12,332 bases of DNA, taken from positions 1 through 12,332 of the forward strand of contig CAJCJE010000391.1 of NCBI GenBank assembly GCA_903970565.1, written 5' to 3'. Below the pieces are notes generated by a model that searched no databases, was not told the DNA's origin, and worked only from the letters and a program-made list of their open reading frames with translations. This stretch comes from Candidatus Melainabacteria bacterium (GTDB lineage: Bacteria > Actinomycetota > Actinomycetes > Mycobacteriales > Pseudonocardiaceae). Positions 6,626-11,194 of this stretch are shown piece by piece (position 1 is the stretch's first letter; each line of letters begins with the position of its first letter). The position numbers were made by a program, and so were the translations under genes.

Positions 6626-7207
6626 ATGGCACGGACCCTACGTCTGACCGGTGACCCGGCCGCCGACGCGCTGCTGTCCACCGACCGCTTCGCGCTGCTC
6701 ACCGGGATGCTGCTGGACCAGCAGATGGCGATGGACATCGCGTTCATCGGGCCGAGGAAGATCGCCGACCGGATGGACGGCTTCGACGTCCACCGGATCG
6801 CCCAGAGCGATCTACAGGAGTTCGTCGAACTGTGCGTGACCAAACCGGCCATCCACCGCTACGGCGGCGCAATGGGCCGACGGGTCCACGAACTCGCCCA
6901 GTTCATCGTGTCCCGCTACGCCGGCCGAACCGACCGGATCTGGAAGACCGGCAAACCGGACGGCACCGAGGTGCTGCGGCGGCTGAAGGAACTACCGGGT
7001 TTCGGCGACCAGAAGTCGAGGATCTTCCTCGCTCTGCTCGGCAAGCAGCTGGGCGTGCGGCCGGAGGGTTGGCGGGAGGCGGCCGGTCCCTACGGGGAGG
7101 ACGGCTCGCGCCGCTCGATCGCCGATGTCACCGGCCCGGAGTCGCTACAGGAGGTCCGCGCGTTCAAGAAGGCCGCGAAGCTGGCCAATGCGGCCTCCGC
7201 GACGTAG
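6626..7207 (+). CDS. HhH-GPD-type base-excision-repair family protein (uncharacterised actinobacterial type)
   Basis: 193 residues from the ATG at 6626. No clear ribosome binding site precedes it, so the transcript may be leaderless. 'FALLTGMLLDQQMAMDIAF' (22-40) matches the first conserved helix of HhH-GPD glycosylases, where 'QQ' precedes the DNA-contacting helix. 'LKELPGFGDQKSRIFLALLGKQ' (120-141) is a helix-hairpin-helix with the LPGxG turn. The later part (SRRSIADVTG ... VRAFKKAAK) is typical of a small actinobacterial family annotated as HhH-GPD base excision repair protein. The catalytic Asp that normally follows the hairpin in MutY/Nth/AlkA is not obvious, so glycosylase activity is unproven. 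A fragment of a close second copy lies 1.7 kb downstream, on the far side of the Fic gene. The gene itself looks intact and full length. Confidence 0.85.
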   Translation: MARTLRLTGDPAADALLSTDRFALLTGMLLDQQMAMDIAFIGPRKIADRMDGFDVHRIAQSDLQEFVELCVTKPAIHRYGGAMGRRVHELAQFIVSRYAGRTDRIWKTGKPDGTEVLRRLKELPGFGDQKSRIFLALLGKQLGVRPEGWREAAGPYGEDGSRRSIADVTGPESLQEVRAFKKAAKLANAASAT

Positions 7208-7236
7208 CCCTCCACCGGCTGACGCAAGGCGGCAGG

Positions 7237-7273
7237 CGACTACGGCAAGCCCACATTCGTCGCTCCGTAGCCG
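7237..7273 (+). terminator. Possible hairpin terminator after the HhH-GPD gene
   Basis: CGACTACGG (7237-7245) can pair with CCGTAGCCG (7265-7273), giving nine pairs with one mismatch around a 19-base loop. It starts 29 bases past the stop codon. No T-tract follows. It also lies close to the left edge of the lower-GC segment. Confidence 0.3.
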
Positions 7274-7345
7274 ACGCAACCAGGCTCGGCACCCTCCGGT
7301 AAGTCCGCACTTCAAAGCACAAAAGGGCTCTGGTATGGAGAGGTT

Positions 7346-7370
7346 TGCAGATTGTCTACATATGCAGATT
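7346..7370. promoter_or_regulatory. Palindrome and direct repeats between convergent genes (operator-like)
   Basis: TCTACATATGCAGA (7355-7368) is a 14-bp palindrome centred on CATATG with one mismatched pair. TGCAGATT occurs twice, at 7346-7353 and 7363-7370, 17 bases apart. The site lies just past the Fic stop codon in a gap between two convergent genes, where no promoter is needed. It resembles autoregulatory operators of GntR- or antitoxin-type regulators (pattern only). It may be the remains of the control region of a gene that once belonged to the acquired segment. Confidence 0.35.
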
Positions 7371-7380
7371 ACCTGTATCT

Positions 7381-8868
7381 TTAGCTCAGGCTCGCCGAGA
7401 ATCTGTCCAAGACGACCATCAAGCTTTCATCCAAGAGATCTTCGACTCGGCCCCAGTGTGCGTTGACACCGTCGCTATAGGTCCAGGTCACGCTTTCCGT
7501 AGGACTCGATATTGCGATCTGCTCTGCGGTATCCCGCTCCTCATCACCGCTATCTTCTATTATCTCGGCAAAAATAGTCAGCGTAAGAACACCGGTCTCG
7601 CCATGTCCAACCTTTTGTATGAACACAAGGTAGCGCAGTCGTTGACCTAGCACGTCGAGGCGTAGCTGAGCCCACCATGAGCCATCGGATAGATTAGCGT
7701 AGAAGTCGACGCTTCGAGCGGTCTTGACCAGCTGACGTCTCCACCACCGCGATCTTGGATCACTAGGAGTGGCAGACCCGACAAACGCCTGAGCGCTTTC
7801 GTCGACCGTTTGGTAGCGCTCTTGAATTTTTTCGCCAAACGATCGCAGCCATACGACGGTGCGCTCATGAATATTCGCAGCAATCAACTCGATTTTCTCG
7901 CGACGCTCTTCCGCCCCCGTTTCGCCTCTCAAGTTCCGTAGGCGGTCAATGTGGGCATCGAGGACTGCCAGGGCGCCTCCACTGGAGACGCCGGCGAGTT
8001 CGGCGGCCGGGCGCTCCAACTCGCTCCGGAGCGCAACGATTTCCAGCTCAGCGAAGAAGCGGACAAGGGGACGGATATCCCCTTCGTTTGCTCGATCCAG
8101 GCACTGGATATATCTATCGCGTTCACGTCTATCGACTACCAAGGGCGCCAGATTAGCTGAAAGCAGGGCGAGTAGCGTCAATCCTCGAGCCACGCGCCCG
8201 TTACCATCCTCGAACGGGTGAATTCGAACAAAACGGTGATGTAGCCAGGCTGAACGAATGACTGGATGAATCTCTGAAATCTCAGAGTAGATCTGGACCA
8301 ACTTTTCCATCTGGGGTTGGACCTGATCGGCTGGCGTGTACTCCAATGTGGAGCCATCCGGCCTGGTGACGTGGTTGGACTGCTCTTTCCACAAACCATG
8401 ATGGAGTGTGGCCTCGAACTTGTGGCCAGTCGGTGCCGTCGCAGTATAAGTTGCCTGGGTTCTGGTCAATGCCACGTGTAGCTCCTTGACCAGATGCACT
8501 GAGAGTGGTCGGCCTTGCCTGGCAACCTCGCTCAAGAATTCAAGGGCGTCATACTGTGAGCGGATCACCTCAAGCACATCATCATCCAGCGGTCCGCTGC
8601 TGGCCCTGGCTACAGCCTCAGCCGTCAGTCCTTCGGCGACGAGAGCTTCCGTCACGCCCCAATCGACGTCGTAGAGTCGCTCGACAATGCCGGTTTCGAT
8701 CGCGTGCCGCCGCAGTCCTCGCCGCCGAGCCTCCCGAAAAGACTCACTGTTCCGTGCGACTACCGTCTCCCAGGCACTCTTCAGTGAGTCAACAGAATCC
8801 AGTACGGACCGGATGTCACCATTGATGTGCGGGAGTGGCTCGACGTCCACCCATGAGAGATCAGGCAT
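7381..8868 (-). CDS. Fic-domain protein (putative AMP-transferase) with unrecognised C-terminal domain
   Basis: 495 residues from the ATG at 8868, which has GGATGAG upstream; a GTG at 8874 would add two residues. Residues 1-110 are helical and hold 'HAIETGIVERLYDVDWG', the place where Fic proteins carry the inhibitory (S/T)xxxE(G/N) helix; here it is T59-xxx-E63-R64. The Fic core (about 120-285) has the flap region 'TLHHGLWKEQSNHVTRPDG' and a complete active-site motif HPFEDGNGR (217-225), with catalytic His217, Asp221, Asn223 and Arg225. Intact motifs of this kind usually transfer AMP, or another nucleotide or phosphate, from a nucleotide to a protein hydroxyl. Residues about 330-495 are Trp-rich (WWRRQ, SWWAQL, HWGRVEDLLDE) and match nothing I recognise. 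Codon use is clearly less GC-biased than in the neighbours, suggesting transfer. No antitoxin gene is adjacent. It could be a toxin, a defence protein or a signalling enzyme. Confidence 0.9.
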   Translation of the reverse strand: MPDLSWVDVEPLPHINGDIRSVLDSVDSLKSAWETVVARNSESFREARRRGLRRHAIETGIVERLYDVDWGVTEALVAEGLTAEAVARASSGPLDDDVLEVIRSQYDALEFLSEVARQGRPLSVHLVKELHVALTRTQATYTATAPTGHKFEATLHHGLWKEQSNHVTRPDGSTLEYTPADQVQPQMEKLVQIYSEISEIHPVIRSAWLHHRFVRIHPFEDGNGRVARGLTLLALLSANLAPLVVDRRERDRYIQCLDRANEGDIRPLVRFFAELEIVALRSELERPAAELAGVSSGGALAVLDAHIDRLRNLRGETGAEERREKIELIAANIHERTVVWLRSFGEKIQERYQTVDESAQAFVGSATPSDPRSRWWRRQLVKTARSVDFYANLSDGSWWAQLRLDVLGQRLRYLVFIQKVGHGETGVLTLTIFAEIIEDSGDEERDTAEQIAISSPTESVTWTYSDGVNAHWGRVEDLLDESLMVVLDRFSASLS

Positions 8869-8906
8869 AGTCACTCATCCAGCATAGGTGCAGCCTGTGA
8901 GCAGCT

Positions 8907-9059
8907 GCCTATCGGATGAGCGGCTTCGATGTCCACCGGATCGCCGAGAGCGATCTACAGGCCGACAGGTCCACGAACTCGCCCAGTTCATCGTGTCCCG
9001 CTACGCCGGCCGGACCGACCGGATCTGGAAGACCGGCAGACCAGACGGCACAGAGGTGC
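8907..9059 (+). pseudogene. Decayed partial copy of the HhH-GPD gene
   Basis: Bases 8907-8961 match 6764-6818, and 8962-9059 match 6877-6974, with 11 mismatches in 153 aligned positions by my count. Compared with the intact gene, 58 bases (6819-6876) are missing at the junction. Since 58 is not a multiple of three, the frame is broken. The copy covers residues about 47-117 of the 193-residue protein and lacks both the start region and the helix-hairpin-helix. Identical protein stretches such as HELAQFIVSRYAGRTDRIW remain readable in one frame. It lies in the same orientation as the intact gene, on the other side of the Fic gene. Confidence 0.88.
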
Positions 9060-9304
9060 GGACGACCGTGCCGGCGGCGTGGCGGCTCTTCACCGTTTCA
9101 CCAACTGTCACGATCACCCGGCCGGCGCGCGCGGACCGCTGACGAGCGGCTTCGTCCCCGCCTCCGGTCGCATCGACGGCGCGGAACCGTATCCGCCAGT
9201 GAATGAGTCAACAGCCTGTCCGCTCTGTCAACCGTGGGCGAATGGGGATTGCCTGTTATATCTGGCGGGGAGCTGCCGTGGATTTTCGGGTGAGGAGAAT
9301 TCGA
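9060..9304 (+). other. Gene-free stretch between pseudogene and GH76 gene
   Basis: No convincing gene is seen. The first part (to the TGA at 9140-9142) stays open in frame with the pseudogene's C-terminal half but does not resemble the HhH-GPD protein. It may be scrambled remnant DNA. The last 120 bases are the likely control region of the mannanase gene: AT-richer spots include TTATAT at 9256-9261, a possible -10, without a well-spaced -35. GAGGAG seven bases before the ATG at 9305 is the ribosome binding site. Confidence 0.4.
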
Positions 9305-11194
9305 ATGCGGACGCACCGGAGATCAACCCTGTCAGCCATCGCCGTTGTCGTCGCCGTCGTGGCCACCCTCCTGGGCGGCGGCTGGGGGCCGGTCGGGGGC
9401 GCCACCGCGCACGCGGACACCACGACGGTCTGCTCGGTGTACTGCGACACCAGAGACCCGTCGTTGGCCAGGCAGGAAACCTTCCCGGTGCCCACTGTCA
9501 ACCTCAACGGCCGACTGTTGGAACTGCACGTGGACGACGCGGACGGGATGGCCTGGGCCAGCGTGGACGACGGGGACGTCGGCGACTCGGTGTGGCTGGA
9601 CCGGTCCTGGGACGGCGGCGGCACCTGGGACGGGATGCTGGGCGAGGCGTCCATTCCGCAGACGTGGACCGGCACCCGCACCCTGATGTACAACCTCTAC
9701 GACCCGGTCAACCATCGGCGCGGCCTGTTGCGGGCCTGCGCCGACGCGGGTGCGGTCACCTGCACCGACTGGGCGCATGTGTTGGTGTGCAACACGTTCT
9801 GCGACCAGCAGAGCACGTCCAGCGCGAGCGGGGACAGTCAACCGGTCGCGCCGACCACCCTGTCCGGCCGGACGATCTCGCTGCACATGGACCCGGTGAC
9901 CGGGCTGGCCTGGGGTGTCATCGCCAACGGCGCACCCGGCGACGAGGTGTGGCTGGACCGGTCCTGGAACGAGGGCGCGTCGTGGCCGGACGGTTCCTCG
10001 CTGGGCCGGTTGGCCATCCCGACTGGTGCCACCGGCACCAGCACGACGATGTTCAACACCACCGACCAGAAGGGCCTGCTCTACGGGGGCGCGGTGCGGG
10101 CCTGCGGGGTGGCGATCACCGGCGAGAACGGCAGTTGCACGGCCTGGGCCCGACCGGCGGAGGTCCGAACATCCGCGGCGGCCGACGCGCTGATGTACTC
10201 CTATGATCCGAACAACGCCTGGTGGCCGTCGAGTTGGTGGAACTCCGCCTCGACGCTGACGAGTCTGATCGACTACCTGCGGACCACCGGCAGCACCGCC
10301 TACGACTGGGTGGTCGCGCGGACCTTCGCGGTGAACGACGTCGCCTTCCCGGCCGGCGCGCGGGGGACCGATCCGATCCAGGGCAACTTCATCTCCGACG
10401 CGATCGACGACAGCCAGTGGTGGGCGCTGGCCTGGATCGACGCCTACGACCTGACCGGTGACTCGACCTACCTCAACGAGGCGGTCACCATCGCCAACTA
10501 CGCCACCCAGTACTGGGATACGAGCACCTGCGGCGGCGGGGTGTGGTGGTCCACCGCGGAAACCTACAAGAACGCGATCACCAACGCCCTCTACATCCGG
10601 CTCACCGCCGCGCTGCACAACCGGATTCCCGGCGACACGCTGTGGCTGGGCCGGGCGCAGACGGCGTGGAACTGGTTCACCGGCAGCGGCATGATCAACT
10701 CTTCCGGTCTGGTCAACGACGGCCTGACATCCTCCTGTACCAACAACGGCCAGACGGTGTGGACCTACAACCAGGGAATGGTGATCGGCGCGGCGATGGA
10801 ACTGTGGCGCGCCACCGGGAATTCCAGCGTGCTGTCCACCGCCGAGACACTGGCCGACGCGGCGCTGAACTCGCCGCTGGTGGTCTCCGGGATACTCACC
10901 GAGTCCTGCGACGCGCAGAACGCGACCTGCGACGACGACCAGAAACAGTTCAAGGGCATCTTCATCCGCTACCTCGCCGAACTGGCCAAGGCCACCGGGA
11001 ATTCGACCTACGAGTCGTTCATCGCGACCCAGGCGAACACCATGTGGAGCGCGGACCGGGACTCCTTCAACCAGATCGGTGAACGCTGGTCGGGCGCGAA
11101 TCCCGGTGCCGATCCGAACATCAGCGACTGGCGAACCCAGGCCAGCGCGCTGGACGCCCTCGACGCGGCCCAGTCGATCGGCCAGTCCGGATAG
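9305..11194 (+). CDS. Secreted GH76 family endo-alpha-1,6-mannanase with duplicated N-terminal module
   Basis: 629 residues from the ATG at 9305 (GAGGAG seven bases upstream). Residues 1-37 are a signal peptide: RTHRR, then a hydrophobic core (AIAVVVAVVATLLGG), then AHA-type cleavage. Residues 41-158 and 160-283 are two copies of one module. Each starts VCxxxCD, contains 'GDxVWLDRSW..G.(T/S)W' and 'LGxxxIP', and ends RAC...CTxWA. Residues about 292-629 form a GH76 alpha-toroid: 'DDSQWWALAWIDAYDLTGD' (368-386), 'CGGGVWWSTAETYKNAITN' (409-427), 'SGMINSSGLVNDGL' and 'TVWTYNQGMVIGA'. The Asp pair 368-369 most likely supplies the catalytic residues, since GH76 uses adjacent aspartates. The enzyme would cut alpha-1,6-linked mannan, as in yeast mannan backbones or mycobacterial-type mannans, outside the cell. 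The module could bind substrate; its role is unknown. A strong hairpin follows the gene. Confidence 0.9.
   Translation: MRTHRRSTLSAIAVVVAVVATLLGGGWGPVGGATAHADTTTVCSVYCDTRDPSLARQETFPVPTVNLNGRLLELHVDDADGMAWASVDDGDVGDSVWLDRSWDGGGTWDGMLGEASIPQTWTGTRTLMYNLYDPVNHRRGLLRACADAGAVTCTDWAHVLVCNTFCDQQSTSSASGDSQPVAPTTLSGRTISLHMDPVTGLAWGVIANGAPGDEVWLDRSWNEGASWPDGSSLGRLAIPTGATGTSTTMFNTTDQKGLLYGGAVRACGVAITGENGSCTAWARPAEVRTSAAADALMYSYDPNNAWWPSSWWNSASTLTSLIDYLRTTGSTAYDWVVARTFAVNDVAFPAGARGTDPIQGNFISDAIDDSQWWALAWIDAYDLTGDSTYLNEAVTIANYATQYWDTSTCGGGVWWSTAETYKNAITNALYIRLTAALHNRIPGDTLWLGRAQTAWNWFTGSGMINSSGLVNDGLTSSCTNNGQTVWTYNQGMVIGAAMELWRATGNSSVLSTAETLADAALNSPLVVSGILTESCDAQNATCDDDQKQFKGIFIRYLAELAKATGNSTYESFIATQANTMWSADRDSFNQIGERWSGANPGADPNISDWRTQASALDALDAAQSIGQSG

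Follow-up and report, generated by a model that had tools for sequence, protein, structure and literature searches.

Serine integrases have been reported in 19 of 144 actinomycete integrative and conjugative elements (AICEs), and one AICE with a serine integrase, Frankia Faln2929, disrupts a putative endonuclease gene, possibly one of the protein family TIGR03252 (available passages of PMC3218068). Decayed AICEs (DAICEs) of Streptomyces that have lost integrase or replicase leave cargo and flanking repeats at a hot spot (available part of PMC9513070), and diverse large serine recombinases share one attB in a conserved coding gene, that of a prolyl isomerase (accessible portion of PMC10083194). 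A standalone Fic gene and AICE genes have been described near diDNase genes of actinomycetes (excerpted text of PMC11706625). Here, a 12,332-nucleotide stretch of Pseudonocardiaceae DNA (the window) was analyzed, in which a Fic gene lies between an intact HhH-GPD-type base-excision-repair gene and a dead piece of the same gene. The window is a 12.3-kb contig (number 391), one of 1020 in a metagenome-assembled genome (4.86 Mb, 75% complete). Comparison of the locus with relatives gives good support to the HhH-GPD gene (TIGR03252) being an integration hotspot, with the crossover and the slot architecture visible in those relatives.

The HhH-GPD protein was searched in 390 genomes of the family and had a match in 359, with two or more matches in 23 besides the genome of the window. 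Copies split at codons 31-32 (GACCAG) were found in at least 13 of these genomes (G029, G075, G078, G119, G129, G178, G257, G263, G267, G277, G279, G282 and G285) as a stub, a displaced copy or both; single parts only were found in G282 (a stub) and in G075 and G267 (displaced copies). This count is a lower bound because short stubs can be missed, as the stub of G119 was by tblastn. The N-terminal stubs end at Leu-Leu-Asp-Gln codons and the displaced C-terminal copies begin Asp-Gln-Gln, so that GACCAG is their common core. At loci of the G029 type, the stubs end in LLDQ followed by HT(V/A) and a stop and continue into CACACTGTcTGATGTATGAC, and the displaced copies begin (C)CDQQ and are preceded by ACATACATnnnnnATGTGTTGC, with variations. 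Joined around GACCAG, the CACACTGTcTGATGTATGAC and ACATACATnnnnnATGTGTTGC arms make up a palindromic attP, in keeping with the action of a large serine recombinase. The junction arms in L156 and G257 are unlike the G029 type, the displaced copy in L162 is decayed with a deletion beside the core, and the split loci L156 and L160 had no recombinase match in the region examined. An earlier note on the window had proposed that the locus may be a recurrent insertion site for accessory genes, and this is borne out in the other genomes, where displaced pieces are cut at codons 31-32 and accessory genes lie between the parts.

Several further matches were rejected as displaced copies: G226 has a single copy without the usual N-terminus, G498 has one gene with an internal insertion, G191 and G195 have full tandem copies, the second matches of G061, G169, G179, G204, G247, G248 and G287 are uncut at codons 31-32, and the second match of G008 is 26% identical. 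Complete tandem pairs, about 78-79% identical, uncut at codons 31-32 and with a gene between them, occupy 8598-10574 of L153 and 8709-10694 of L154; the gene between the copies in L153 encodes a metallo-beta-lactamase fold. Pairs of consecutive N-terminal stubs, separated by about 1.2 kb of cargo, occur in L151 (15240-16599, Fic), L157 (13624-14986) and L211 (10801-12150), the latter two with other genes, and look as if elements had been stacked on one another. In G257 (L164, L165), about 66 kb separate the displaced copy from a stub and a complete copy, and the recombinase is found at the far end, which makes this a far larger element that occupies the same site. In G263 and G267 (L166, L167, L169, L170), the displaced copies have related attR arms and the next HhH-GPD copy is 83-87 kb away; these loci may reflect large elements or rearrangements.

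The gene beside the stub has about 530-537 codons, and its L151 protein contains Resolvase, Recombinase and zinc-ribbon domains and is taken as the integrase of the element. Relatives of this recombinase (L151/G029 type) at E <= 1e-80 were present in 10 of the 390 genomes, nine of them with 64-100% identity and G257 with 40-42%; nine of the 13 split-copy genomes hold such a 64-100% identical large serine recombinase. The stub lies directly upstream of the recombinase in eight of the nine genomes (seven by tblastn, and G119 as read from the sequence) and not in G075; in G263, stub and recombinase are on a different contig from the other HhH-GPD copies. Recombinase relatives at 34-36% identity (L185-L187, L189) were set aside, with no HhH-GPD stub in the short loci examined.

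A compact element is carried by eight genomes (G029, G075, G078, G119, G129, G277, G279 and G285), in the order recombinase, NUDIX gene, helix-turn-helix (HTH) regulator, RepSA, complete HhH-GPD gene, slot, attR and displaced copy. The exceptions are G078, where NUDIX was not found and the HTH regulator is 31% identical, and G277, where the complete HhH-GPD gene was not found, so that a spare full-length gene is present in seven of the eight. RepSA is assigned as a replication initiator by Pfam (E = 1.4e-150 in L151 and 1.1e-154 in L158), its score of 496 bits with the NCBIfam RepSA model being below the cut-off of 700. These elements resemble AICEs in their serine recombinase, RepSA initiator, NUDIX and HTH regulator genes, and in site-specific integration in a coding gene; they differ in the spare target-gene copy and in that no FtsK/SpoIIIE transfer gene was found among the element open reading frames (ORFs) scanned, a scan that did not cover every ORF, and for this reason they are called AICE-like rather than AICEs. 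In a tree of 71 HhH-GPD rows, including 12 full-copy and 12 displaced-copy rows and leaving out the dead piece of the window, full-copy and displaced-copy rows each fall in several clades (nine changes each), which indicates more than one origin for the spare copies; among the full-copy rows are L153, L156, L160, L164 and L169, loci that fall outside the G029 element type. The displaced copy of L145 groups with resident genes, and its spare copy with that of G119. L145 (Saccharothrix sp. S26) is the same locus as L155 of G129 and was counted once.

The slot, which lies between the spare gene and attR, holds one to a few low-GC genes that are mostly of defense type (GC, guanine plus cytosine). 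At the seven recombinase loci with both copies, it spans 1000-4071 bp at 53.6-56.4% GC, the L162 value including a second, decayed displaced copy. Its contents are DUF4917/PDC-S21 (L145), a TIR effector/PDC-S35 with DUF6414 (L151), AAA/HEC-04 (L158), PDC-M55 A, B and C (L159), SLATT (L161), a phosphorylase-type effector (L162) and NACHT (L163), and slot genes in five of the seven loci match PADLOC models. SLATT and NACHT were assigned by NCBIfam or Pfam matches, and both have links to defense. Relative to the spare gene, the longest slot ORFs run antiparallel in six of the seven loci. In L158, L159 and L161, TIR, Shedu or HNH genes occupy an additional slot next to the recombinase. The CBASS genes of L156, which lacks the recombinase match, also match PADLOC. 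Other Fic genes at the HhH-GPD locus are found in G029 (L151), between the two stubs, and in G078 (L207), just outside the stub.

Recombinase relatives at E <= 1e-60 were found in eight of 397 genomes drawn from the order. One of these, G597, belongs to another family of the order and has a 37% identical recombinase, two stubs and a displaced copy from codon 31. In a class-wide sample, the HhH-GPD gene was present in 185 of 281 genomes, ten of which were examined closer; six of the ten are from family f32 of another order, five of these having been chosen for several matches. Three of the six fit the pattern (G790, G821, G897) and three do not (G723, G743, G920). In G790 (L212, L213), three stubs lie within about 40 kb, each adjoining a recombinase 44-50% identical to that of G257. 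These elements are built differently, because the recombinase lies upstream of the stub, as opposed to downstream in G029, and they may bring a replacement 5' end of the HhH-GPD gene. In G821 and G897, the displaced copies start at codons 29-31, and the regions examined gave no convincing recombinase match. At least three diverged recombinase lineages are thus found at the HhH-GPD gene, with cuts at or beside codons 31-32.

In the window, the intact gene (6626..7207, forward strand) encodes 193 residues and belongs over its whole protein to NCBIfam TIGR03252 (285.5 bits, cut-off 136.5), its score with Pfam HhH-GPD being 22.4 bits, below the cut-off of 26.2. Its GACCAG at codons 31-32 (6716..6721, forward strand), which the attL and attR junctions of relatives mark as the attB core and split point, is unbroken. 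The low-GC inserted segment (7208..8906) is 1699 bp long, with 56.8% GC as against 69.4% in the rest of the window, and contains a Fic gene as an open frame of 497 residues (7381..8874, reverse strand), which is antiparallel to the HhH-GPD gene and whose start adjoins the dead piece. The dead C-terminal piece (8907..9059, forward strand) covers codons 47-117 with a 58-bp internal deletion. Block alignment gave a direct repeat in the same orientation between gene nucleotides 139-193 and window 8907-8961 (49 of 55 identical) and a second block between gene nucleotides 250-349 and window 8960-9059 (95 of 100); the blocks overlap by GG, so that 153 aligned bases with 11 mismatches (92.8% identity) remain and 58 gene bases are absent between them. 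The larger block has E = 3.9e-39 against the whole assembly, far beyond chance, and the next best match of the dead piece among the loci compared is 77.6% over 98 bases. Of the 11 differences, six alter the encoded residue and five are silent, as would fit a copy that selection no longer maintains. In the flanks of the dead piece, likeness to codons 1-46 or to the region beyond codon 117 does not exceed that of shuffled sequence. A direct-repeat scan of the window gave 27 families, and among the 20 listed D1, D4 and part of D6 are the HhH-GPD repeat. The earlier note had described the same-orientation repeat with its mismatches and its deletion, the bracketing by an intact gene and a decayed fragment, and the lower-GC DNA with one Fic gene between the copies, and had argued that the copies are not a recent target duplication; the alignment, the family assignment and the base composition agree with it on all of these points.

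The window has the order of a complete HhH-GPD gene, a low-GC accessory gene and a displaced C-terminal piece, and it matches the right end of the elements of relatives in order, orientation, distance and base composition; its low-GC segment is like their slot, between spare gene and attR, in both place and composition. The HhH-GPD gene holds, in GACCAG at codons 31-32, an attachment site for large-serine-recombinase elements. Integration splits the resident gene, leaving its N-terminal stub at attL and displacing its C-terminal copy to attR, and the host keeps a working copy because seven of the eight fuller elements carry a spare full-length one. Such an element may have landed in an ancestor of the window, bringing the spare HhH-GPD gene and the Fic gene; subsequent loss, e.g., by recombination between the stub and the spare gene, would have removed the N-terminal stub and the genes for recombinase, regulator and RepSA, and the displaced copy would have decayed as the Fic gene stayed. 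We incline, with some reserve, to the view that the window preserves the right end of an element of this kind whose integration and replication genes are gone.

A number of observations weigh against this relic reading. No recombinase was found at E <= 1e-80 in the genome of the window (75% complete), nor among the window genes scanned. A stub of the N-terminal part next to the intact gene was likewise not found, and the genome yielded no additional match. Displaced copies begin in the core, at codon 31, but the dead piece begins only at codon 47, which is 16 codons further downstream. An nhmmer profile of 12 attR sites recovered its own 12 sites and gave no match at the window junction; its matches in the window were short, weak and at other positions, and the best of them (E = 0.035) falls within the GH76 gene. 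The junction between the Fic start and the dead piece (8875..8906, forward strand) has a weak gapped likeness to the attR arms of relatives that is not significant, and in a gapped attR scan the placements starting at 8856-8876 rank 146 to 773 of 4916 overlapping placements. The missing arm is not decisive, since arms in L156 and G257 also differ from the G029 type, yet it is no help. The identity between the copies is 92.8% in the window, compared to 67-81% in the recombinase loci and 88% in L156. When ten window proteins were compared with the loci of relatives from L071 on, no clear match that would reveal an empty site by gene order was found, and no close genome. Two loci of relatives also depart from the slot pattern, as the slot gene of L145 is parallel to the spare gene, and L157 has no spare gene that was found and no defense match for the one slot ORF tested.

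The high identity of the copies is what would be expected between congeneric strains, and it favors homologous import, one of two mechanisms considered in the earlier note: a segment of a related strain, with HhH-GPD and a downstream Fic gene, would have recombined at the HhH-GPD gene without a site-specific recombinase and left the remnant of the old copy on the far side. The lack of a visible attR or recombinase in the window agrees with this, as does the split locus L156, whose copies are closely matched (88%) and which gave no recombinase match. However, L156 is still split at GACCAGCAG, and therefore even this closely matched case began at the att core, and the composition, length and orientation of the window segment match the slots of recombinase loci; we regard import as unlikely. 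The other mechanism, a local tandem duplication of the HhH-GPD gene whose second copy decays, with later insertion of an unrelated Fic gene between the copies, would account for the six residue-changing differences, as in a dead copy, and full-length tandem copies with one gene between them exist in G195 and G191. The copies of G195 and G191, though, are complete and about 78-79% identical, the dead piece has nothing N-terminal to codon 47, and two independent events would be required, which makes this origin improbable in our judgment. Integration by a serine recombinase at codons 31-32, with later decay, appears likelier than either mechanism; each of the two retains a share of the probability for the window because attR and recombinase are unrecognizable there and no other genome of its genus, g1, is among the matches listed. 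Lastly, the sharp GC step and the fragmented assembly could point to an assembly or binning artifact; misassembly would not create copies with a 7% difference and a deletion, and like split loci occur in the single-contig genomes G119, G257 and G267, so we give this explanation very little credence.

The Fic protein belongs to the Fic/DOC family, with 58.5 bits against Pfam Fic (cut-off 24) and the catalytic motif HPFEDGNGRVAR, of the HPFxxGNGRxxR type, from residue 219. TGIVER, from residue 61 in the N-terminal part, resembles the inhibitory motif of Fic proteins. With PADLOC the protein matches SoFic (E = 4.7e-23) and PDC-S04 (E = 2.2e-21), and it is like these Fic systems in its Fic domain and HPFxxGNGRxxR motif. 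It differs from SoFic in its score, since 33.2 bits with NCBIfam SoFic (NF046030) against a cut-off of 550 means that it is not a SoFic protein, and in a long C-terminal part that has no Pfam match. A homolog search found 929 proteins, of which 120, including the query's own record, were kept (51-100% identical); among these 120 the catalytic pattern occurs in 116 and the (S/T)xxxE-x-LY pattern in 119, and the named proteins are actinobacterial. Fic relatives at >=51% identity occur in six other genomes of the 390. This patchy distribution argues against the Fic gene being native to the locus throughout the clade, the observation that the earlier note had named as telling against insertion, among listed matches that include no other genome of the window's own genus. 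Within 17-18 kb around the six relatives there was no HhH-GPD match and no L151 recombinase or RepSA match, and for this reason the Fic subfamily of the window is not tied to the hotspot, a further point against the relic reading. From what is known of the family, the Fic protein probably AMPylates a target in infected or stressed cells, and it may have a role in defense.

Directly downstream of the dead piece lies a GH76 glycosidase gene (9203-11194), in which a weak match to the attR core near 9800 is probably due to chance. In the gene-order comparison only three loci had matches. Two Nocardia loci (L108, L121) have a dioxygenase relative (34-35%) 1.3-1.5 kb downstream of HhH-GPD, which was rejected as synteny, the dioxygenase of the window lying 3 kb upstream; in L111, a relative of the lipase lies upstream at a distance of about 8 kb and was not counted as shared gene order either.

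If the window is a relic, it would be like DAICEs in a loss of machinery that leaves cargo and flanking repeats; the hot spot described for them is a tRNA-Arg gene (available part of PMC9513070), whereas the window has a repair gene as target and a piece of that gene as the repeat. The HhH-GPD site is like the one in PMC10083194, as far as that article was available, in that diverse recombinases use one conserved coding site, and the accessible main text of that article has no mention of HhH, glycosylase or base excision. No description of HhH-GPD/TIGR03252 as an integration site was found in the literature searched, which was mostly without subscription papers, and an earlier description is possible.

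Speculatively, and with considerable doubt, codons 31-32 might be a site at which immunity genes are swapped across actinobacterial families: the spare repair gene would keep the host healthy and make a fresh landing site, single defense genes would stack between stubs and, like the Fic gene, persist in domesticated form after the machinery is lost, and the spare enzyme may itself act in immunity. A conserved actinobacterial repair gene would be a predictable address for new immunity genes, to be sought between a complete copy and a displaced piece. The recombinases, with their well-defined attachment sites, come from Pseudonocardiaceae, a group rich in antibiotic producers, and their elements show that a mobile element can supply a spare copy of the very gene that it disrupts.

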